Part shown: positions 28,137 through 38,424 of the stretch, one piece after another
How positions within the stretch are numbered: position 1 is the first letter of the stretch
Layout of the letters: each line of letters opens with the position of its first letter
From: an uncultured beta proteobacterium
GTDB lineage: Bacteria > Pseudomonadota > Gammaproteobacteria > Burkholderiales > Burkholderiaceae_C
Assembly (NCBI GenBank): GCA_903948045.1
Contig: CAJAXU010000483.1
Span: forward strand, 1 to 38,619
Reading direction: 5' to 3'
Length of the DNA stretch: 38,619 bases
The notes under the pieces: generated by a model
Databases searched by the model: none
What the model was told of the DNA's origin: nothing
What the model saw: the letters and a program-made list of their open reading frames with translations, nothing else
Made by a program: the position numbers and the translations under genes

Positions 28137-28586
28137 TCAGTGGTTAGCGCGCCGTTTGAGCCAGCGCATCAGGCCGCCCAAAATGGGGAGTTTCTCGTAC
28201 AGCTCCTCGGCAGCGTCCCAGTAGTCGCGGTGCAGGGTGACCAAGCCAGTTGCGGCAAATACCAGATGAGAGGCACCCAGGATGACCTGTGGCTGCGAAG
28301 GTCGGTAGGACCGCAATCGAAAATGGAATTCCCAGGTCAAAAAGCACTGCGCGCCTTGCACCACTTGTTCTGTCACCACAAAGCGCGGTTCATGCAGTGA
28401 TGCAAACATGTGCCTGAAGATGCCTTCAATCGCTGGCACGCCCGTCACCTCATTGAAAGGGTCCTTGAAGCGGGCCTGAGCATCGTAGATCTGACCGATG
28501 TCGGCCACGCTGCTCAGCGTCAGGGTTTCAAAAAACGTGACAACTCTGGCTACTGCGACCGCCGAAGGTGGTGGTGTCGTAATCAT
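28137..28586 (-). CDS. NTF2-like (SnoaL-type) protein
   Basis: A 149-residue protein from the ATG at 28586, which overlaps the SDR stop as ATGA; a longer frame to 28652 lies inside the SDR gene. The NTF2 cone fold is suggested by VVTFFETLTLSSVADIGQIYDAQARFKDPFNEVTGVPAIEGIFRHMF, followed by paired beta strands ending in HRDYWDAAEELYEKLPILGG. Relatives are small isomerases, dehydratases or binding proteins. It is the last gene of the eight-gene lipid operon, where an NTF2-like protein is a regular member. Function unknown. Confidence 0.82.
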   Translation of the reverse strand: MITTPPPSAVAVARVVTFFETLTLSSVADIGQIYDAQARFKDPFNEVTGVPAIEGIFRHMFASLHEPRFVVTEQVVQGAQCFLTWEFHFRLRSYRPSQPQVILGASHLVFAATGLVTLHRDYWDAAEELYEKLPILGGLMRWLKRRANH

Positions 28587-29362
28587 TGCGTGACACGCCG
28601 TACCAGGGCGAAAAACAGGCGGTCGGGCAGCAGCCGTAGTACTTTCATCCACCGCGTGAAGCGCTTGGGAAAGTGCAGCTCAAAGGCGCCGCTGCGCCAG
28701 CCTGCCAGCATGGCGGTGGCTGCCTGTTCCGGCGTGATCAGCGCAGGCATGGTGAAGGCATTGCCAGCGGTCAAGGGCGTCTCGACAAAACCTGGATTAA
28801 CAATCGACACCCCCAGGCCGCGGGGGCGCAGATCGAGGTACAGGGTTTCGGCCAGATTGATCAGCGCCGCTTTGGTCGGGCCGTAGGCCAGGCTGTTGGG
28901 CAGGCCACGGTAGCCGGCCACGCTGCCGACCAGGCTGATGTGACCCTGGCCGCGCGCCAATAGCGCCGGCAGCACTGCATCCAGCAGGTACAGGGCGCCC
29001 AGGTAATTGACGGCCAGGTGGCGTTGCATGTCGGCGACGTCGATGGCTTCGGCACGCATGGCCTGGTAGTGGCCTGCGCAGTAGACCACGCAGTCGATGG
29101 GCCCTTGTGCCAGCAAGTTGGTGGCGGCCAGGGCCACAGCCGCTGGGTCGGTGGCATCCAGCGCCAGCGCTTGACTGCCCGGGTGCTGCTGCACGAAGTC
29201 CGCCAGTGCCTCTGCCTTGCGGGCTGACACGGTCACCCGCGCGCCCGCCCGGTGCAGCGCTGAAGCGGTAGCCCGCCCGATGCCGGTCGAGGCACCAACA
29301 ATCCAGACTGTCTGGCCCTGCCAGTCACGCAGGGGCGGGTTGAGTGGGGCAAAGAGCGGCAT
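28583..29362 (-). CDS. Short-chain dehydrogenase/reductase of the lipid operon
   Basis: A 259-residue classical SDR. Cofactor motif GASTGIG (about 23-29), SARK after beta-2 suggests NADP, YCAG replaces NNAG (about 92-95), the catalytic Ser is in LVGSVAG, and Tyr/Lys are in YGPTKAA (about 156-162). A hydrophobic C-terminal segment (MKVLRLLPDRLFFALVRRV) may touch the membrane, as in lipid-acting SDRs. It lies 10 bases after the DUF3833 gene and overlaps the NTF2-like gene. It probably reduces or oxidises a lipid-linked carbonyl/hydroxyl (inference from context). Confidence 0.88.
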   Translation of the reverse strand: MPLFAPLNPPLRDWQGQTVWIVGASTGIGRATASALHRAGARVTVSARKAEALADFVQQHPGSQALALDATDPAAVALAATNLLAQGPIDCVVYCAGHYQAMRAEAIDVADMQRHLAVNYLGALYLLDAVLPALLARGQGHISLVGSVAGYRGLPNSLAYGPTKAALINLAETLYLDLRPRGLGVSIVNPGFVETPLTAGNAFTMPALITPEQAATAMLAGWRSGAFELHFPKRFTRWMKVLRLLPDRLFFALVRRVTQ

Positions 29363-29372
29363 AGGTGGCTGC

Positions 29373-29912
29373 TCAGCGTTTCACGAACGACAGGGTGACC
29401 TCGCCCAACCGGACGCCAAACTTGCTCATGGCGGCTTTGTTGAGCATGACCTTGTCCGTCATCAGGTACATCCAGTCATCAAACTGAACCTCGAACACGC
29501 GGCCGTCAACAGGCAGGTTCAGGGTGTAGGTCCAGTGGAAGGTGTTACCCCTAGTCTCGCCGCGAGCTTCGCCCACCACGTCGTCGGCGCGACCACTGAA
29601 GCGGCCGTCGCCGAGCTTGCGCAGTCGCCAAATGCGTTTTTGCGTGCTGCCATCGGAATAGCGGAAGTCTTCATCCAACACGCCATCGTCACCGTTCCAT
29701 GTGCAGACCATGACCACGGTGAAACGCTTGACCACGGTGCCGGAGCGGTCGGTGAAAACGCCGTAGGCGTCCAGTGTGCCGTTGAAGTACTGCGCAAGGT
29801 CAAGCAGTGGTTTGTCCTGGGCATAGGTTTCGATCTGCTGCACAGCGCAGCCGCTCAGTAGCAGCGTGGCTGGTGCGGCAGCGGCGGCAGCGAGCAACAG
29901 GCGGCGTTTCAT
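29373..29912 (-). CDS. DUF3833 lipoprotein
   Basis: The ATG at 29912 overlaps the MFS stop as ATGA; this gives 179 residues, while the frame extends further upstream inside the MFS gene. The N-terminus MKRRLLLAAAAAAPATLLLSGC is a lipoprotein signal with lipobox LSGC, so the mature Cys is lipidated and the protein is likely outer-membrane or periplasmic. The rest is a lipocalin-like beta-rich DUF3833 (FNGTLDAYGVFTDRSG, FRYSDGSTQKRIWRL, WTYTLNLPVDG, MNKAAMSKFGVRLGEVTLSF). DUF3833 genes recur with MFS, SDR and cyclopropane-synthase-like genes. It may carry or shield a modified lipid. Confidence 0.88.
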   Translation of the reverse strand: MKRRLLLAAAAAAPATLLLSGCAVQQIETYAQDKPLLDLAQYFNGTLDAYGVFTDRSGTVVKRFTVVMVCTWNGDDGVLDEDFRYSDGSTQKRIWRLRKLGDGRFSGRADDVVGEARGETRGNTFHWTYTLNLPVDGRVFEVQFDDWMYLMTDKVMLNKAAMSKFGVRLGEVTLSFVKR

Positions 29913-31186
29913 GGCGTTCTCCGGATGATCAGGGTGTACAGCAGGGTGGCGGCCAGCAATTTGAGTGCGCAGGGCAACAGACAATAGGCTGCGGACAGGG
30001 TTTCCAGGGCGGCTCCGTCGCGGCTGCCTGGCTGATAACCGAGCGCCGCCAGCGCTGGCAGCGCACGGCCGGCCGCAAGGGCCAGGTTGAGTTTGGACGC
30101 GAAATTCCACCAGCCAAAGTAAGTGCCCTCCTGTGTGGACTGATCGCCACTGTTGGCGATGTGACCTGCTAGCAGCGCGCTCGGCACGGCCAGGTCGGCG
30201 CCCAGCCCGATGCCTGACAGTGCACACACGCCCGCGAAGGCGGCGCTATCGCCGGCGCCCAGACCGGCAGCAAAGATGAAGACGGCGATCGACAGCAGCA
30301 TGCCCAGCCCCCAGGCGCGCGCCAGCCCGAACCGGCCAACCAGCTTTAACCAGGCAGGTATTGACAGGGCAGCAGCCACAAAATAGGCGCTCAGGAACAG
30401 GGGCTCGGCAGCGGGCGGGGCCTGCAGCACGTCTTGCACAAAGAACAGCAGCAGGGTGGCTGGAATAGCGCTGGCGATGCCATTGACGATGAACACCGCC
30501 AGCAGTCGGCGGAATCCCGGGCGTGACCAAGGCAGCCAAAGCGAGCGCCTATCGCGCCCAGCGGATGGCTCTGGCGCAGCGGCCGGCCTGGGCCTGGGGG
30601 CTCGGGTCCAGGCCAGCCAGCCCAGCCCGATGGCTGCAAAAAAAATACCGACAGTGGCGGGCAGACCCAACGCGATGGGGCTTACGGACGCCAGGATCAC
30701 GCCGGCCAAGCCAAGCCCTTCACGCCAGGCCACCACGCGGCTGCGTTGCGCCTCGTTGCCACCCAGCATGGCGCCCCAGGACTGATGCATCACAGTCAGT
30801 GCGCTGAATGCGGCGTAAGTCAACACCAGACAGGCTCCGGCCCAGGCCAGCAGGGCATCCACCCCTTGCATCGGGGGAAAGAACAACAGTGCGAAGCCCA
30901 GGCCCAGTACGATCGATGCCGCCGCTGCCGCGCCCAGGACGGTGCGCGCCGAGCGTGCAAACAGGCGGTCGCTCCATCGCCCAAGCATTGGGTCGATCAG
31001 CGCGTCAAACAAGCGCGCGCCCAGCAGCAGGGCGCCAAGCGCCGCCAAGGGTACGCCAAAATTACGGGCGTAGTGGTTCGGCAGCAGTACATAAAGGGGC
31101 AAGGCGACAAAGGCGAGCGGCAGGCCCATCAGACCGTATCGCCAGCCCTCGCGCCAGCCAAAAGCAGTGGTGGCGCCGTCGTTCAT
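29909..31186 (-). CDS. MFS transporter (GPH/melibiose-like family)
   Basis: A 425-residue inner-membrane protein with about 12 hydrophobic segments. The signature of the glycoside-pentoside-hexuronide group is visible: ARLFDALIDPMLGRWSDR (about 58-75), with the acidic D..D. The second half repeats the pattern more weakly (KLVGRFGLARAW; LSGIGLGADLAVPSALLAGHIANSGDQSTQEGTYFGWWNFASKLNLAL, about 323-370). In this operon it probably moves a lipid precursor or product, not a sugar. Its ATG overlaps the stop of the chalcone-isomerase-like gene (ATGA). Confidence 0.88.
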   Translation of the reverse strand: MNDGATTAFGWREGWRYGLMGLPLAFVALPLYVLLPNHYARNFGVPLAALGALLLGARLFDALIDPMLGRWSDRLFARSARTVLGAAAAASIVLGLGFALLFFPPMQGVDALLAWAGACLVLTYAAFSALTVMHQSWGAMLGGNEAQRSRVVAWREGLGLAGVILASVSPIALGLPATVGIFFAAIGLGWLAWTRAPRPRPAAAPEPSAGRDRRSLWLPWSRPGFRRLLAVFIVNGIASAIPATLLLFFVQDVLQAPPAAEPLFLSAYFVAAALSIPAWLKLVGRFGLARAWGLGMLLSIAVFIFAAGLGAGDSAAFAGVCALSGIGLGADLAVPSALLAGHIANSGDQSTQEGTYFGWWNFASKLNLALAAGRALPALAALGYQPGSRDGAALETLSAAYCLLPCALKLLAATLLYTLIIRRTP

Positions 31187-31749
31187 GTTGCGGCGCGGGC
31201 CAGCAGGGCGTTGCGCAACTTGGGTTCGCTGGTGGCCTCACCCAGCCAGATGCCGAAGAACTTGGTGCCAAAGGCTGCGTCGCCCATGCCCCCGATTCTG
31301 CGCCCCTGGTGCCAGAACGAGACGCCCCCTGGCGGGTGCAGCCCCGTGATGCGGTCGCCCGCTGCCACATCAGGCAAGATGTCTTGCAAGTTCGTGAGCC
31401 AAGTCCGCGCTGTGTCCGGCGCGACCTCGTGCATCCGCCGGATCTCTTGCAGCGAGCGCTGCGCGATGTCGCTGGCGGTGAAGGCACGCAGATAGGTCAG
31501 GCACAAGGCAAAACGCTGTTGGCTGAACTGAGCAGGCTCAAAGCCAGGCAGCGCCCACAAAGCGGCGTCATACACAGACAGGCCGAAGTAGCGCAGCCGG
31601 CCGTTACCGACCAAGCGGGTTCCTGGCATGGCGGCGAGCACTTCGGCAGGCGGCGCCGGTGGCGTGTCCTGGGCCAGGGCGTCGAAGGTACAGGCCTGAA
31701 CGAAAGCGCCCAGGGCGGCTTGACCAAGCAGGGTGCGGCGAGTTGGCAT
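31183..31749 (-). CDS. Chalcone-isomerase-like exported protein
   Basis: The ATG at 31749 gives 188 residues. The N-terminus MPTRRTLLGQAALGAFVQA contains RR followed by a hydrophobic stretch, compatible with Tat or Sec export. The mature part has the bacterial chalcone-isomerase-like pattern: GTRLVGNGRLRYFGLSVYDAALWALPG (about 43-69), LCLTYLRAFTASDIAQRSLQEI, and FWHQGRRIGGMGDAAFGTKFFGIWLGE. The same fold binds fatty acids in plants (FAPs); bacterial members have no set function. It lies 10 bases after the cyclopropane-synthase-like gene and overlaps the MFS gene by 4. Confidence 0.85.
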   Translation of the reverse strand: MPTRRTLLGQAALGAFVQACTFDALAQDTPPAPPAEVLAAMPGTRLVGNGRLRYFGLSVYDAALWALPGFEPAQFSQQRFALCLTYLRAFTASDIAQRSLQEIRRMHEVAPDTARTWLTNLQDILPDVAAGDRITGLHPPGGVSFWHQGRRIGGMGDAAFGTKFFGIWLGEATSEPKLRNALLARAAT

Positions 31750-31759
31750 GGGTCCGTCT

Positions 31760-32983
31760 TCAGAGCGCTGGCTTCTGCAGTGTGTATTGCACGACATCAA
31801 TATTGCCTTCGCAGAAAGCCGCTTCGCAATAAGCCAGATAGAACTCCCAAATTCGCATGAAACGCTCGTCAAAACCGCCTTGCAGCACCTGGCTGCGCGC
31901 GCCCAGAAAGGCTTCGCGCCAGCGTTTCAAAGTTTCGGCATAGTCCAAGCCAAACGCGTATTCGTCCACCACCTCGAAACCTGCGGCACTGGCCTGCGCC
32001 CGGAACTCGCGCGGGCAGGGCAGGCAGCCGCCCGGGAAGATGTACTGTTGGATGAAGTCTGTGCCTCGCACATACCGCTCAAAGATGCTGTCGTCAATCA
32101 CAATGCTTTGCACGCAGGCCCGACCCCCGGGTTTGAGCAGGCGCGCCAGCGTAGCGAAGTAGTTGGGCCAGTACGCGCGCCCTACCGCTTCAATCATCTC
32201 GATCGAGCAGATGGCGTCAAAAGGCGGGTCCTGGATGTCGCGGTAATCCTGCAGCCGTAGGTCAGCCCGTTCAGCCACGCCCAGGCGTTGCAGTCGCTCG
32301 CGCGCAAAGGACAGTTGTTCAGTGCTTAGTGTGACCCCGACCAGCGAGGCGCCGAAGGTGGTGGTGCTCATTTCCGCCAGGGCCCCCCAGCCGCAGCCGA
32401 CCTCCAGCACCCGGTCGCCGGCCTTGACCTGACACAGTTCCAGGGCACGCCGTACCTTGGCTGTTTGAGCCTGCGCCATGGGTTGGCTCAGATCACCGGC
32501 AAAAATTGCCGACGAGTAATTCATGGTGTCATCGAGCCAAAGACGGTAGAAAGCGTTGCCCAGGTCGTAGTGGGCGTGGATATTCTTTTGGCTGTTGGCG
32601 CGGGTGTTGCGGTTAAGCAGGTGCTTGATCCGGTAAAACAGGCGGCCGGCCCAGGACCCATAAATGGCCGATTCCACCTCTGCTCGGTTTTTCACCAGCA
32701 CCCGCAGCAGCTCGGTCAGGTTGGGGGTACTCCAATCTCCTGCGATAAAGCTCTCGGCAAAACCAATATCGCCTGATTTCAGCGCGGCGGCGCAGGGTTT
32801 CCAGTTGTGCAGATGCAAGGCGGCGTGGGGCGCTGCCGTGCCGCCAAAGCGCTGCATCGAGCCGTCTGGCAATTGCAGCGTCAAGCTGCCGTGCTGCAGG
32901 CCTTGCAGCAGCTTGAGCACGGCGCGGCCGGCCGCGGGCGTACCTTGCGGAATGGAATAGGGGGTGGCAGTGCTGGTGTTCAT
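31760..32983 (-). CDS. Cyclopropane-fatty-acyl-phospholipid-synthase-like methyltransferase
   Basis: A 407-residue SAM-dependent methyltransferase of normal CFA-synthase length. An N-terminal lipid-binding region (about 1-130, IGFAESFIAGDWSTPNLTELL) is followed by the catalytic domain with YDLGNAFYRLWLDDTMNYSSAIF (about 141-163). SAM motif I is VLEVGCGWGALAE (about 194-206). SIEMIEAVGRAYWPNYFATLARLLKPGG and IQQYIFPGGCLP follow. It adds a methylene or methyl group to unsaturated acyl chains of membrane lipids. Because the operon also has DUF1365 and a FAD amine-oxidase-like protein, a methylated or furan fatty acid product (compare Rhodobacter UfaM) is as likely as a plain cyclopropane. Confidence 0.9.
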   Translation of the reverse strand: MNTSTATPYSIPQGTPAAGRAVLKLLQGLQHGSLTLQLPDGSMQRFGGTAAPHAALHLHNWKPCAAALKSGDIGFAESFIAGDWSTPNLTELLRVLVKNRAEVESAIYGSWAGRLFYRIKHLLNRNTRANSQKNIHAHYDLGNAFYRLWLDDTMNYSSAIFAGDLSQPMAQAQTAKVRRALELCQVKAGDRVLEVGCGWGALAEMSTTTFGASLVGVTLSTEQLSFARERLQRLGVAERADLRLQDYRDIQDPPFDAICSIEMIEAVGRAYWPNYFATLARLLKPGGRACVQSIVIDDSIFERYVRGTDFIQQYIFPGGCLPCPREFRAQASAAGFEVVDEYAFGLDYAETLKRWREAFLGARSQVLQGGFDERFMRIWEFYLAYCEAAFCEGNIDVVQYTLQKPAL

Positions 32984-32996
32984 GAGGGGCTTGGGC

Positions 32997-33773
32997 TCAG
33001 CGGGTGGTCAGCGAAGTCGGAGGAACCGGTTTGGCAAAGAAGGGCGCACGTTTGGCAAACAGCTTGAGCGCCTGCCAGTGGATGCGCAGTACCACGCCCA
33101 GCGTCATGGCCGGGTAGTGCCACAGCGCACGGCGCACGCTGCGGGCATTCAACGGAACCAACGCGCCACTGACACTGGTCTGAATTAGCGGGCCGTCGGC
33201 GTCGTCGAAATCAATCCGCCCCACCGTGCGGCAGCGCTTGGCATCCACCATGAAGCGGAAGCGGTAGCCCCCCTCCACCGGGCAAAACGGCGAGACATGA
33301 AAGACCTTGGCAGCCCGCTGCTCCACCCCGTAGCGGGGGGCGTCAAGCAGGTAGCAGTGGCGCTCACCGAAGGTGTTGTTGACCTCGACCACTATGGCGC
33401 GCAGGGTGCCGTCGGCACGGTGGCAGTACCAAAAACTGACCGGCTTGAAGGTGTGACCCAGTACCCGTGGGTAACAGTGCAGCCAGACCTCGCCATCGGC
33501 GCCGTCAATACCCTGCTGCTGCAACAGGTCGTCGAGCCAGGCCAGGGCGCCGCCCTGTGCCGGACTGCGCCCGTCACCATGGTCGACGTCAAAAAAACTC
33601 AGGGGTGCCCAGCGGTTGCGAACCAGCGCACCCGGGCCGGCCACCGCCAGACTGCGCATGGGCAGCATCAAAAAATACGTGCCATAGGTGAAGGCATTGC
33701 GCACCGGCTTGAGGCGCGTATGTCGCACCTGACCAAAGCCGATCAACGCCTGAGACGTTTCAGCGCGGTTCAT
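32997..33773 (-). CDS. DUF1365 family protein
   Basis: A 258-residue protein that matches DUF1365: GQVRHTRLKPVRNAFTYGTYFLMLPM (about 13-38), WLHCYPRVLGHTFKPVSFWYCHR (about 102-124), VVEVNNTFGERHCYLL, KVFHVSPFCPVEGGYRFRF and a C-terminal basic helix with IHWQALKLFAKRAPFF. DUF1365 genes almost always stand between a FAD amine-oxidase-like gene and a cyclopropane-synthase-like gene, as here, so a shared role in lipid modification is inferred. No enzyme activity is established. It overlaps the oxidoreductase stop by ATGA and precedes the methyltransferase by 13 bases. Confidence 0.93.
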   Translation of the reverse strand: MNRAETSQALIGFGQVRHTRLKPVRNAFTYGTYFLMLPMRSLAVAGPGALVRNRWAPLSFFDVDHGDGRSPAQGGALAWLDDLLQQQGIDGADGEVWLHCYPRVLGHTFKPVSFWYCHRADGTLRAIVVEVNNTFGERHCYLLDAPRYGVEQRAAKVFHVSPFCPVEGGYRFRFMVDAKRCRTVGRIDFDDADGPLIQTSVSGALVPLNARSVRRALWHYPAMTLGVVLRIHWQALKLFAKRAPFFAKPVPPTSLTTR

Positions 33774-35071
33774 GCCAGAGCGCCCTGGTTTGGGCCTAGC
33801 AGAGGTTCGAGTTGTGCTGCCACCGCCAAACCTGATTTAAGCCCGTCTTCATGAAAGCCATAGCCAGTCCAGGCCCCGCAAAAATAGGTGTGGCGCTGCC
33901 CCTGCAAGGCTCTGACAGCTTGCTGGGCCCGGATCGCGGCGAGGTCGAAGATCGGGTGCGCATAGTCGAAGCTGGCATGAACCTCGCCAGGCGCAATGGC
34001 GCGCAGTGGGTTGAGCGACACCAGCACTGGCTGCGCAAAGGGCAGCGGCTGAAGTTGATTGAGCAGGTAGTGCAGGCAGACTTGGTTGGCGTCCCCAGCC
34101 CCAATGGCGCGCTCATAGTTCCAGGCCGCCCAGGCCCGGCGCTGGCGTGGCAGCACCGAGGTGTCGGTGTGCAGCACGGCCCGGTTGGCCTGGTAACGGA
34201 TGGCGCCCAGTGTGGCGCGTTCGGCCTCGCTCGCGTCATCCAGCAAGGCGAGGGACTGGTCGGAGTGACTGGCCAGCACGACCTTGTCAAAGCGCTCGGT
34301 CTGCCCTGCGGCGCTGACCAGTACGCCCTGTGCATCCCGGCGGATCAGCTGCACCGGGCAGCGCAGGCGCTTGTCGTCAATCCGGGCGGTGATTTTGTCA
34401 ACGTACTGGCGTGCACCGCCATCCACCGTCCACCATTGCGGCCGGTTGGTGACCTGGATCAGGCCGTGGTTGTGGCAGAACCGGACCATGGTGGCCACCG
34501 GGAACTGCAGCATTTGGTCGGTTGGACAGCTCCAGATGCAGCCCAGCATCGGCAGAAAGTACCAGTCTCGGAACTCGGTTGAAAACTGGTGCTGCGACAA
34601 GAAGTCAGCCAACGGTTGTAGCAGTTCGGCATCCCGACCTCCGACGGCCAGGGCGGTGGCCAGACGGTTGAAACGCAGCACATCGCCCAACATCGCCAGA
34701 AAACGCGGGCGCACCAGATTGCGGCGCTGGGCAAACACGGTGTTGAGCGAGGAGCCGCTCCATTCCAGGACTGCTGGTGGCCGATGACCCGGGACCTGAA
34801 CCGAAAACGACATGTCCGAGCGGGCGGTCGGCACGCCGAGCTCGCCAAACAGCCGGATCAGTTCGGGGTAGGTGCGCTCATTGAAAACGAGAAAACCGGT
34901 GTCCACGCCATGACGGACGGGTCCGTCCGGGCCCGGGAGGGTGAGGTCGACCGTATGCGTATGGCCGCCGAAATAGTCGCCCGCCTCAAAAAGAGTGATG
35001 TCCGCCCGGCCGCGCAGGCGATGCGCCACAGCCAGACCAGATATGCCGGAGCCGACGATGGCCAGCTTCAT
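33770..35071 (-). CDS. FAD-dependent amine-oxidase-like oxidoreductase
   Basis: The ATG at 35071 gives 433 residues beginning MKLAIVGSGISGLAVAHRL; 35107 is an alternative start adding 12 residues, and neither has a clear ribosome site. GSGISG (8-13) is the dinucleotide-binding motif and FEAGDYFGGHTHTVD (about 28-42) the amine-oxidase GG-doublet region. DTGFLVFNERTYPEL, LPMLGCIWSCP and the C-terminal CGAWTGYGFHEDGLKSGLAVA (FAD-binding GxxxxxGxxEgal type) complete it. It likely oxidises or desaturates an acyl chain. It is the first gene of the eight-gene operon. In Rhodobacter sphaeroides the comparable gene cluster is tied to furan fatty acid formation. Confidence 0.9.
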   Translation of the reverse strand: MKLAIVGSGISGLAVAHRLRGRADITLFEAGDYFGGHTHTVDLTLPGPDGPVRHGVDTGFLVFNERTYPELIRLFGELGVPTARSDMSFSVQVPGHRPPAVLEWSGSSLNTVFAQRRNLVRPRFLAMLGDVLRFNRLATALAVGGRDAELLQPLADFLSQHQFSTEFRDWYFLPMLGCIWSCPTDQMLQFPVATMVRFCHNHGLIQVTNRPQWWTVDGGARQYVDKITARIDDKRLRCPVQLIRRDAQGVLVSAAGQTERFDKVVLASHSDQSLALLDDASEAERATLGAIRYQANRAVLHTDTSVLPRQRRAWAAWNYERAIGAGDANQVCLHYLLNQLQPLPFAQPVLVSLNPLRAIAPGEVHASFDYAHPIFDLAAIRAQQAVRALQGQRHTYFCGAWTGYGFHEDGLKSGLAVAAQLEPLLGPNQGALA

Positions 35072-35145
35072 GCGCTGCAAACCGCTGCCTTGGGAGGCTC
35101 GAGGCATAAAAAGAGGGTGTGCATTGAAGATGGTACGTTGTAGTT

Positions 35146-35216: not shown

Positions 35217-36455
35217 CTAAATGCGTTTGACCGACGGGATGGCCTTGGTCAGCGGCAGAAGTCGCTTGAGTGGCGGCCGGACCTTGATCTCATGACCCGG
35301 AATACTGCTCAGAATCTTGAACTCGCTTTGCGCCGTATCACGCACCGTCAACTCACTGTGCGTCATCCCGAGGCGATTGAGCATCACAGCGACAAAGGGG
35401 GTGGTGGTGTTCGCGCCGCGCCGTACCACGATCGCAGTTTCCTGAGAAGCCAGACGAACATAGGTGCCTGGAGAGTAGATGCCGACGGCCTTGATCAGGG
35501 CCGCGCCTGCCTCGTCGACCTGCTTGTTTTCATCAAAGTAAATGGCTTTCATGGCGATGCCCGGGGGCACCGCCTTGCGCGCCGCTCGCGGCGAAATGGC
35601 GGCCGCAAATTTGTCGGCGCGTTGAATCAGGCGGGCGATCCGTTCACCGGGCGAGCGTTTGGACAGCGGCCCTGGCAGTTTGGCGTGATGGTGCCGCACG
35701 CCCTCGAGCCAGAGTTGGTTGGTGAGCCCAAGTGAGGTCAGCATGTCGACTGAGCGTGCCGGATGCTGGTCAATGTTCTGCCGTTGTGGTGGTGCGACGG
35801 GCTCTTTTTGTTGCGCCAGCACGTCTTGCAGCTCCGTCATGCCAATGTTCATGCTCAGCGCGGCACGGCCGAGCGCGCTGGTGAGATCCGCCGGCCAATG
35901 CAACACCTCGCGTGCTGCAATGCCGCACATGGCATTGACCAGCATGGCATGGGTCGCACTGTAGCGCTCGACCTCGATAGAGGCCATCTGAATCAGGGCC
36001 AGCAGCGTTCCGTCCGGGTTGGCTTGGCTGAACAGACTGACTTTATCCTCCAGCCGCTCGACCTGTTCCAGGAACGCCGCCTCGCGACCATTTCGCAATA
36101 TGGCGTGTGCCTGCTCTTGTAGATAGGGCCAATCCGGTTCCTTGTCGACTTCCGGCAGCCGGGAAGGGCTGCGCCTGGCCCCCGCGACCTGGTCTCCGGC
36201 CTGGGCGATGTTGGCGAGTTTGGAGTCCCGCGCCAGCATCGTCAACATCTGTCCCTCTTGATGCCGCTTCAGTGCCTGCGCATCCTGGCGGTCGATGAAC
36301 AGGCTGTCGTTCCCCTGGGCCATGGCTTCAAGCTCGGTGCGGCTTTTGACGCGGCTCCCCTTTTTGAGCAGCAGGGCCCCACTGGCACTCCATAACGAAA
36401 AGGGAAGTGGATCTTCGATGCGGATGCTGGCGATTTTGACGGGCGAGAGGTCCAT
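35217..36455 (-). CDS. Degenerate HD-GYP-like protein, copy 1
   Basis: A 412-residue protein. A short N-terminal beta-rich region (1-60) and a linker precede an HD-GYP-like helical domain (about 145-320) and a C-terminal beta-rich tail (about 320-412). Relics of the metal site are His169 (YSATHAM), His231 (QHPARS), His255-257 and Asp281 (RADKFAA). The HD dyad, however, is Met202-Asn203 (SMNIGM), and the GYP motif is replaced by PGPLSKRS. It is therefore unlikely to cleave cyclic di-GMP but may bind it or a partner. It is 46% or so alike by eye in the core to the adjacent copy, 28 bases upstream, and the pair are probably co-transcribed. Confidence 0.8.
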   Translation of the reverse strand: MDLSPVKIASIRIEDPLPFSLWSASGALLLKKGSRVKSRTELEAMAQGNDSLFIDRQDAQALKRHQEGQMLTMLARDSKLANIAQAGDQVAGARRSPSRLPEVDKEPDWPYLQEQAHAILRNGREAAFLEQVERLEDKVSLFSQANPDGTLLALIQMASIEVERYSATHAMLVNAMCGIAAREVLHWPADLTSALGRAALSMNIGMTELQDVLAQQKEPVAPPQRQNIDQHPARSVDMLTSLGLTNQLWLEGVRHHHAKLPGPLSKRSPGERIARLIQRADKFAAAISPRAARKAVPPGIAMKAIYFDENKQVDEAGAALIKAVGIYSPGTYVRLASQETAIVVRRGANTTTPFVAVMLNRLGMTHSELTVRDTAQSEFKILSSIPGHEIKVRPPLKRLLPLTKAIPSVKRI

Positions 36456-36483
36456 GGACGGTCAGGAGTTACGGTCGCGGCGC

Positions 36484-37851
36484 TCAGGCCGGAAAATTGG
36501 AGGCCGGGGTGCGGGTCAAGGGGATGAGCCGAGAGAGATTGAGGCTGACTTTGACGCTGGCGCTGGGCAGGCCGGCGGTGACGCGCCAGTCGGCCAAACT
36601 GGTGTCGCGCAGGGTCAGCTCATTGTTGGGCAGGCCCTCGCGATTCAGCACCACAGCGACGCGTGGCGCGCTGGTTACTCGGCCGCGCCGCACCACAATC
36701 GCCACCTCTTGGCTGGCCAGCCGGACAAAAGACCCCGGTGGGTAAACACCCACGGCCTTCACAAGTGCGGCCCCAGCCTCGTCGACAGCCTGGTTTTCAT
36801 CAAAATAGGCCGCTTTCATGGCGATCCCGGTGGCGGCTGCCGAGCGGGAGGCGCGGGGTGAAATCGCGGCGGCAAAAATGTCGGCCCTTTGAATCAAGCG
36901 CGCCATCCGCTGGCCCTGGCTGCGTGCGGCCAATGGACCGGGTGCTTTGGCATGGTGGTCGAGCACCGCCTCCAACAGGTCGCGGTTGGTCACACCCAGT
37001 TGGCGCAGCAGTGCCGCCGAGTGACTCGGGTGCACCCGAACCAGTTCGCGCTGTTTGGGGTTCAAAGGTTCTTTTTGCTGCGCCATCCGGTCCTGCTGGA
37101 CCGACATACCGATGTTCATCGTCAGAGCCGCATGGCACAGCACAGTTTCTTGCAGCGCCGGCCATTTCAAGACATCGCGTGCGGCGATGCCGCACATCAC
37201 ACTGACGAGCATCGCGTGGGTGCCGCTGTAGCGCTCCAGATCCCGCGACGACAGAAAAAACAGGCTGAGCAGTGTGCCGTCGGGGTTGAGCCGGGCGTAG
37301 TGGCCAAGGTGGGCCTGTAGTTTTTCCAGTCGTTCACGGAAATTTTGTGGGTTGGAGACCCGCAGCAGGGCATGTGCCTGGTCTTGCAAGTCCAGCCAGT
37401 CGGCCTCACTGCTGGGGATCTCGCCCAAGGGAGCTTCGACTTTCGTGCTGGTAGCGCCGCTGGCCTCAACGCCTGCATTCAGTACGGCCGATACTTCGGT
37501 GCGCGGCGGTGCCGCCTTCAGGGTCGCCAGTCGGTCAGATCCTCTTGAGACAGCCCGCTCGCGAGCGACCACCACGCCCATGTCAGTCAGTCGGGTGCTG
37601 GCGATGGCGCCAAGAGCGCGATCTCCGCTCAGCAGTGCATTCAAGCGCTTTTGATAGGCGTTTTGAAAACGCTCGTATTCAATCGCATCGACCAGCAGCT
37701 TGTCGCGCTTGCCCAGCATGACCTCGTACTCCCGCTTGTCCTTCAGGATGTAGCCGCTACCAGCCACCATCAGGCCATTCTCATCCCAGACTGAGAATGG
37801 CAGGGCCTCGCCGATGCGGATGTGTTCGAAACTGAAGCTGACGCGTCGCAT
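36484..37851 (-). CDS. Degenerate HD-GYP-like protein, copy 2
   Basis: The ATG at 37851 (MRRVSFSFEHIRIGEALPFSVW) gives 455 residues; the longer frame to 37932 runs into the rfaE2 promoter. The layout is that of copy 1, with an extra 40-odd-residue Ala/Thr/Ser-rich linker (about 115-155). The core repeats the same changes: THAMLVSVMCGIAARDVLKWP, TMNIGM in place of HDIGK, RVHPSHSAALLRQLG, DHHAKAPGPLAARS without GYP, and IQRADIFAAAISPRASR. The C-terminal tail ends in VSLNLSRLIPLT, like RPPLKRLLPLT in copy 1. Both paralogs have kept the same losses, so the altered site is probably selected. It is divergent from rfaE2. Confidence 0.8.
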   Translation of the reverse strand: MRRVSFSFEHIRIGEALPFSVWDENGLMVAGSGYILKDKREYEVMLGKRDKLLVDAIEYERFQNAYQKRLNALLSGDRALGAIASTRLTDMGVVVARERAVSRGSDRLATLKAAPPRTEVSAVLNAGVEASGATSTKVEAPLGEIPSSEADWLDLQDQAHALLRVSNPQNFRERLEKLQAHLGHYARLNPDGTLLSLFFLSSRDLERYSGTHAMLVSVMCGIAARDVLKWPALQETVLCHAALTMNIGMSVQQDRMAQQKEPLNPKQRELVRVHPSHSAALLRQLGVTNRDLLEAVLDHHAKAPGPLAARSQGQRMARLIQRADIFAAAISPRASRSAAATGIAMKAAYFDENQAVDEAGAALVKAVGVYPPGSFVRLASQEVAIVVRRGRVTSAPRVAVVLNREGLPNNELTLRDTSLADWRVTAGLPSASVKVSLNLSRLIPLTRTPASNFPA

Positions 37852-37932: not shown

Positions 37933-38424
37933 ATGAGCAATTCAGATGCCATTTTGGCCCTTTACGACAAAATTTGTGACCCGCGGGACCTGCCAGCGCG
38001 ACTGGCGCGCTTGCCACGGCCACTGGTGTTCACCAACGGCGTCTTTGATGTGTTGCACCGGGGCCATGTGCAGTACCTGGTGCAGGCCCGGGCGCTGGGC
38101 GCCAGCCTGCTGGTTGCACTCAACACCGACGCCTCGGCGCGCCGGTTGGGTAAGGGGCCAGACCGGCCGCTCAATCCGGAGGATGATCGCGCCGTGGTGA
38201 TGGCGGCGCTGGCCTCGACCAGCCTGGTCACCTGGTTTGACGAGGACACGCCGCTGCAGCTGATCACCCAGGTGCGGCCCGACATCCTGGTCAAGGGCGG
38301 CGACTACGACATGCAGACCCTGGCCGAGACCCGCGTGGTTGAATCCTATGGTGGCCGCGCCCTGGCCCTGCCTTTTGTCAGCGGCTATTCCACCACGGCT
38401 CTGGTGCGAAAAATCCGCCAATAA
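37933..38424 (+). CDS. rfaE2: D-glycero-beta-D-manno-heptose 1-phosphate adenylyltransferase
   Basis: A 163-residue stand-alone nucleotidyltransferase. The signature VFTNGVFDVLHRGHVQYL (about 32-49) contains the HxGH-type HRGH ATP-binding motif. DRPLNPEDDRAVVMAAL, IRPD-like VRPDILVKGGDY and the C-terminal GYSTTALVRKIR complete the HldE C-domain pattern. It transfers AMP to heptose 1-phosphate, making ADP-heptose for the lipopolysaccharide inner core. In E. coli this is fused to the kinase (HldE); here it is separate, as in many betaproteobacteria. The stop is 10 bases from the end of the convergent RND gene. Confidence 0.96.
   Translation: MSNSDAILALYDKICDPRDLPARLARLPRPLVFTNGVFDVLHRGHVQYLVQARALGASLLVALNTDASARRLGKGPDRPLNPEDDRAVVMAALASTSLVTWFDEDTPLQLITQVRPDILVKGGDYDMQTLAETRVVESYGGRALALPFVSGYSTTALVRKIRQ

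Follow-up and report, generated by a model that had tools for sequence, protein, structure and literature searches.

The window analyzed here, a 38,619-nucleotide stretch of DNA from an uncultured beta proteobacterium, carries at its end a tandem pair of genes for degenerate HD-GYP proteins. In both proteins, the HD dyad and the GYP motif are replaced. The altered pocket is nevertheless under stronger constraint than any other part of the protein, showing that selection holds the altered site. We propose, as an explanation that has about an even chance of being right, that the two proteins are cytoplasmic, non-catalytic and non-hydrolyzing regulators that bind a nucleotide, of the kind represented by DvhD, PA2572 and HnoD. 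By analogy with characterized homologs, both copies are very likely inactive and nucleotide binding is moderately probable; dimer switching and the existence of partners are weakly suggested.

Copy 2 (455 residues; 36484-37851, minus strand, ATG at 37851) is the first gene of the pair and is separated by 28 nt from the downstream second gene, copy 1 (412 residues; 35217-36455, minus strand). The two proteins share 46% identity over 437 columns (E=9e-129). Copy 2 is composed of a small N-terminal domain (residues ~1-75), a disordered linker (73-147), a pseudo-HD-GYP domain (~200-350) and a C-terminal beta domain. Copy 1 has the same architecture with a shorter linker. The AlphaFold2 model of copy 1, made with 13 sequences, has a pLDDT of 82.5, and a model of copy 2, with the same order of elements, a pLDDT of 73. 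Among the PDB chains compared, the copy 1 model matches Bd1817 best (Z 19.2, 268 residues, 5.2 Å), followed by c-di-GMP-bound DvhD (Z 14.6) and by PA4781 and PmGH (both Z 11.3). Because the rmsd is high, these matches support the fold but not the fine geometry. As judged from the models, both proteins have the HD-GYP fold.

Copy 1 and copy 2 narrowly miss the curated cut-off of Pfam HD_5 (PF13487), with 27.1 bits (residues 157-314) and 25.9 bits (residues 227-346), respectively, against 27.2. GYP-bearing relatives match the same model with E values of 1e-14 to 1e-25. NCBIfam has no model for either copy. The N-terminal domain DUF3391 (PF11871) is present in canonical HD-GYP proteins of the window genome (L004-L006) but is found in neither copy at E values up to 10. 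HDOD (PF08668) gave no match either at the same threshold, and membership in both groups was rejected for this reason. HDOD domains are likewise HD-related and non-catalytic, but the sequence of the copies is nearer to HD_5. Two of the canonical proteins, L004 and L005 on contig C361, also form a tandem; both carry DUF3391, with an intact HDAGK and GWP in place of GYP.

Motifs were read from an alignment to L004-L006. As the initial annotation had claimed, MNIGM stands for HDxGK in both copies (copy 1 residues 202-206, 35838-35852; copy 2 residues 245-249, 37105-37119; all features of this paragraph are on the minus strand) and PGPL stands for the GYP region, GxGYP (copy 1 residues 261-264, 35664-35675; copy 2 residues 304-307, 36931-36942). 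A dyad located elsewhere in the domain, which the same annotation had named as the contrary case, was searched for, and neither protein contains any HD dipeptide. The claimed retention of His169, His231, His255-257 and Asp281 in copy 1 is also borne out, His256 and His257 being the metal-ligand counterparts. PmGH H189 corresponds to His169 in copy 1 (35949-35951) and to His212 in copy 2 (37216-37218), H250 to His231 (35763-35765) and His274 (37030-37032), H276/H277 to His256/His257 within the His255-257 triplet (35685-35693) and to His299-His300 (36952-36957), and D305 to Asp281 (35613-35615) and Asp324 (36880-36882). All five of these PmGH metal ligands are kept in both copies, while positions H221, D222, K225 and D308 have become M, N, M and A. 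Arg290 and Arg293 of copy 1 (35577-35588), like Arg333 and Arg336 of copy 2 (36844-36855), align with R314/K317 of PmGH and R650/R653 of DvhD and form a putative ligand-binding pair. Tyr165 of copy 1 (35961-35963) is at the position of PmGH E185 and aligns with DvhD Y523, a ribose contact.

In PmGH, alanine substitution of H221 or D222 leaves essentially no activity, and K225A and D308A have a similar impact (PMC4159591). Since these four essential positions are all replaced in the copies, we infer that neither is catalytic, which agrees with the non-catalytic character first proposed. Judged from the pocket, hydrolysis of c-di-GMP by these proteins is very unlikely.

Core dN/dS is 0.02-0.04 between close orthologs of both copies. 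It reaches 0.13-0.28 for more distant orthologs, where dS is near saturation, and is 0.09 and 0.13 for the closest two pairs (L040 with L041), which hold few changes. Across the 57 GYP-less proteins, 18 alignment columns out of 255 show no variation. Ten of these 18 belong to a set of 12 pocket positions chosen from PmGH and DvhD: Y165, H169, M202, N203, M206, H231, H256, D281, R290 and R293 in copy 1 numbering. The enrichment (p ~1e-11) assumes independent columns and is inflated by relatedness. All 57 proteins have H189, H250, H276 and D305 (PmGH numbering) and both Met, and 44 keep H277. The invariance of M and N, together with the low core dN/dS between close orthologs, argues that the MN/PGPL state is due neither to chance nor to decay. 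A 13-member subclade of relatives from the same genus (L015-L027) has R, S or N instead of the second His of the HH pair and keeps the other pocket residues.

The initial annotation had suggested searching for homologs and mapping their neighbors; this search gave 129 MN relatives, with neighbors that differ between genera. A match at E <= 1e-10 was found in 44 of 60 relatives searched. A profile of 19 members was then run against 200 genomes of the order, where family members score above ~175 bits and canonical HD-GYP proteins at or below ~160. High-scoring members occur in ~49 of these genomes, about a quarter, and the dyad is MN in 129 high-scoring proteins. Median pairwise identity within the family is 31%. 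After clustering at 50% identity, 30 of 35 clusters are MN, the others being RD, AN, HD or HD/KD. In the wider class the motif reads ALT-x-N, with x = M, A, G, S, C or Q and, in these small samples, a nearly fixed Asn. A search of 199 genomes of the phylum at a strict cut-off found members within the class only. The tandem pair described at the outset is real but is not the whole story, as the window genome contains a third MN member at another locus (L003, 319 residues, MNIAM), beside a plsY-like gene. In the mostly open-access literature covered, we found no paper presenting MN or xN as a fixed HD-GYP motif, nor is there a family model for such a lineage among those searched. With no NCBIfam model and a borderline HD_5 score, this supports the view that the subfamily is undescribed.

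No family match was found in viral contigs. On plasmids, the sole confirmed member is WP_013006499.1 (L174, 4584-5741), encoded by the conjugative plasmid pTK9001 of Thioalkalivibrio sp. K90mix; it has GN in place of HD, an intact GYP, and is annotated as an HD domain-containing phosphohydrolase. The other plasmid matches, obtained with a GYP-bearing relative, are weak (<33% identity) and for the most part incomplete. On these grounds, an origin from a virus or plasmid was rejected.

The phylogenetic tree was computed without the MN and GYP columns. It separates the family from canonical proteins at 98% SH-aLRT, with both copies inside the family; close to the family base lie a few members with HD, RD, AN or KD. 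The tree set includes 129 MN proteins, and HHExxDGxGYP is intact in 72 of them and missing from the other 57. The branch corresponding to the window's taxonomic family holds nearly all GYP-less proteins, and most relatives outside this family retain GYP. Because MN is order-wide and mostly accompanied by GYP, whereas the GYP-less state is mainly restricted to the window's family, the sequences indicate two separate events: replacement of the dyad in an old ancestor, followed later by loss of GYP. Parsimony gives three GYP changes in total, the number of losses being unsure; further losses are possible since one GYP-bearing protein (L073) lies inside the GYP-less branch. The duplication that gave copy 1 and copy 2 also lies within this branch, where a 14-row set containing both copies is supported at 99%; the ortholog groups of copy 2 and copy 1 have 97% and 86% support. 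The tree thus indicates that the gene was already altered when it was duplicated, once, and independent loss in the two copies was rejected. Both copies inherited both states from this single duplication, so that finding the same state in each does not count as independent evidence. The initial annotation had argued from the shared loss to a conserved non-catalytic or re-purposed role: such a role is supported, but the shared loss is inherited.

Other members document variations of this scheme. L106, L122 and L123 still have HD but already lack the residues equivalent to Lys225 and Asp308; they are possible intermediates or reversions. An independent tandem is found in another taxonomic family (L172, 7159-8274, plus strand; L100; L101), in which an MN-GYP gene is followed by a degenerate copy. 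This second copy, which reads ALSLQL, retains almost none of the pocket residues and provides a natural control for full loss. L118 and L119 form another MN-GYP tandem pair, showing that tandem duplication recurs in the family.

The proposed mechanism starts from an old ancestor in which M-N...M together with a small residue took the place of the dyad and of the Lys and Asp that hold the metal cluster, while the remainder of the pocket, with its four His, single Asp and two Arg, was retained. A cyclic dinucleotide, c-di-GMP or 3'3'-cGAMP, would enter this pocket and stay uncut, with the Arg pair and Tyr165 holding it in place. The bound ligand may then alter domain pairing, or packing against the N-terminal domain and partners, and the signal could be passed on, possibly via a contact between copy 1 and copy 2. 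The window genome has 18 GGDEF matches, so that c-di-GMP is very probably produced in this cell; canonical matches to HD_5 number about a dozen. Binding without hydrolysis has been observed in this fold: a PmGH monomer with one Fe holds uncut c-di-GMP, with R314 and K317 on a guanine, and DvhD binds c-di-GMP without metal, with a Kd of ~99 nM, and leaves it uncut (PMC13090378).

The DvhD ligand contacts Y523, L577 (L/V), K582 (R), R650, R653 and E668 are present in the copies, Tyr165, Arg290 and Arg293 being invariant; Y621, M646 and Y652 are missing. Arg293 is not a marker of receptors, since the active enzyme V-cGAP3 also has Arg there. In the GYP-less branch, Y621, which is the GYP tyrosine, has become A/S and Y652 has become S/A. 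GYP-bearing members of the family keep Y621 in 81 of 81 cases and Y652 in 48 of 81. Because the GYP-less branch has lost a base-clamping Tyr, c-di-GMP binding is less certain for the window copies than for GYP-bearing relatives. By analogy with DvhD, the latter are likely to sense a nucleotide. For the two window copies, nucleotide sensing is the best but not a secure reading, and a change of ligand is possible. The c-di-GMP receptor initially suggested is therefore one plausible form of the role, weakened by the loss of this Tyr. A broader view would make the family a class-wide set of HD-GYP-derived cyclic-dinucleotide receptors, at present annotated as phosphohydrolases, in which a fixed HD-to-MN (xN) exchange switched off catalysis once, with the window's branch re-tuned (two Tyr lost, Arg pair kept) to a new ligand and working as a tandem hetero-pair; we consider this view doubtful as a whole.

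The pocket might alternatively be kept for folding, in regulators that bind no nucleotide and restrain a true phosphodiesterase or cyclase by protein contact. There are precedents for such a role. The degenerate HD-GYP protein HnoD of Shewanella oneidensis is inactive and inhibits the phosphodiesterase HnoB by binding it directly (PMC6335343), and PA2572 has undetectable activity yet controls virulence genes (PMC3411652). The absence of two Tyr ligand contacts in the window's branch goes in the same direction. However, all 57 GYP-less proteins carry Arg290 and Arg293, and their DvhD counterparts matter for ligand binding: R650A and Y652A/R653A are less stabilized by c-di-GMP, while the ligand-free mutants are as stable as wild type (PMC13090378), so that in DvhD these residues have a role in binding and not in stability. 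We see this explanation as possible but rather unlikely. A re-purposed metal site, in which four His, one Asp and two Met would hold one metal, perhaps a soft one, for metal or redox sensing or for another catalysis, is less probable still. The invariance of H189, H250, H276, D305 and both Met, with H277 in 44 of 57, would fit such a site, and the resistance to EDTA of the G-site (GYP-side) iron of PmGH, the other two being stripped, shows that a one-metal state of the fold exists. On the other hand, the bridging Asp is absent, the 13-member subclade lacks H277 with all else kept, and many proteins of the wider class have A, G, S, C or Q at the position of the first Met, which is accordingly not a needed ligand there.

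That the proteins are still c-di-GMP phosphodiesterases with fewer metal ligands appears very improbable. Most His ligands remain, and GYP, R314 and K317 are dispensable for PmGH activity (PMC4159591), so that GYP loss alone would not kill activity. But the copies have replaced each of the four positions at which substitution severely impairs PmGH, and PA2572, which has YN at the dyad, has no detectable activity. Finally, loss of motifs resembles decay, as in the second copies of L100 and L101, which lost nearly all pocket residues. That the window pair consists of decaying, functionless paralogs is scarcely credible given the invariant pocket and the intact reading frames of the orthologs examined, and the core dN/dS of 0.02-0.04 led us to reject it.

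The genomic context does not help to define the function. A cytidylyltransferase-like gene of the rfaE2 type (37933-38424, plus strand) lies head-to-head with copy 2; it is a conserved neighbor in the genus and not part of the system. This arrangement is found in the genus loci examined and is lost in other genera. Neighbors are lipid, rfaE2, purB or plsY genes, vary between genera and are mostly housekeeping; none of those in the loci examined indicates a c-di-GMP output. As the rfaE2 link is limited to the genus and the other neighbors are mostly housekeeping, we drew no function from the neighbors and rejected a functional link via them. On the other side of the pair, a cluster on the minus strand (28583-35107) encodes SDR, DUF3833, MFS_2, chalcone isomerase-like, CMAS cyclopropane synthase, DUF1365 and amine oxidoreductase proteins. 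It is largely conserved beside the pair in several relatives and is reminiscent of furan fatty acid or ChrR-type stress clusters.

In Pfam the family falls under HD_5, and one member with a public annotation is called a phosphohydrolase. Members occur in about a quarter of the 200 genomes sampled from the order, so the number of c-di-GMP-degrading enzymes counted in these bacteria is probably inflated and a group of likely receptors overlooked. The series from HD to MN with GYP, and then to MN without GYP, would provide a natural record of an enzyme becoming a regulator.

Inactive HD-GYP regulators are already known, namely PA2572, HnoD, NosR, Bd1817 and DvhD. The canonical phosphodiesterases PmGH (4MCW), PA4781 (4R8Z) and V-cGAP3 (5Z7C) have in common with the copies the fold and most of the His, Asp and Arg of the metal site, but HD, Lys225, Asp308 and GYP are all replaced in the copies. 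HnoD and NosR (Burkholderia pseudomallei, HG-GTP) likewise have a degenerate HD-GYP domain (PMC6335343, PMC12570481); in contrast to the copies, they are response regulators, NosR having a REC domain. The NCBIfam model of NosR matches copy 2 with E=0.016, far under its cut-off. PA2572 (Pseudomonas aeruginosa, YN-GYP), likened here by motif and description, also has Asn at the D222 position but possesses a REC domain and keeps GYP. Bd1817 (Bdellovibrio bacteriovorus, PDB 3TM8) is likewise inactive, and the match with the model covers residues 1-325, N-terminal domain included. Unlike the copies, Bd1817 retains the HD dyad and a di-iron centre, and is itself devoid of the GYP Tyr (PMC4159591). 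DvhD (Desulfovibrio vulgaris, PDB 9RBZ/9RC0) resembles the copies in having the HD-GYP fold without the HD dyad, which is SQ in DvhD, and the Arg pair and Tyr523 of its ligand site are conserved in them. It differs in its membrane location and in carrying dCache and PAS domains. The two systems also differ in what they have lost: DvhD lost the HH pair and D305 and kept GYP, whereas the copies keep HH and D305 and lost GYP and Tyr652.
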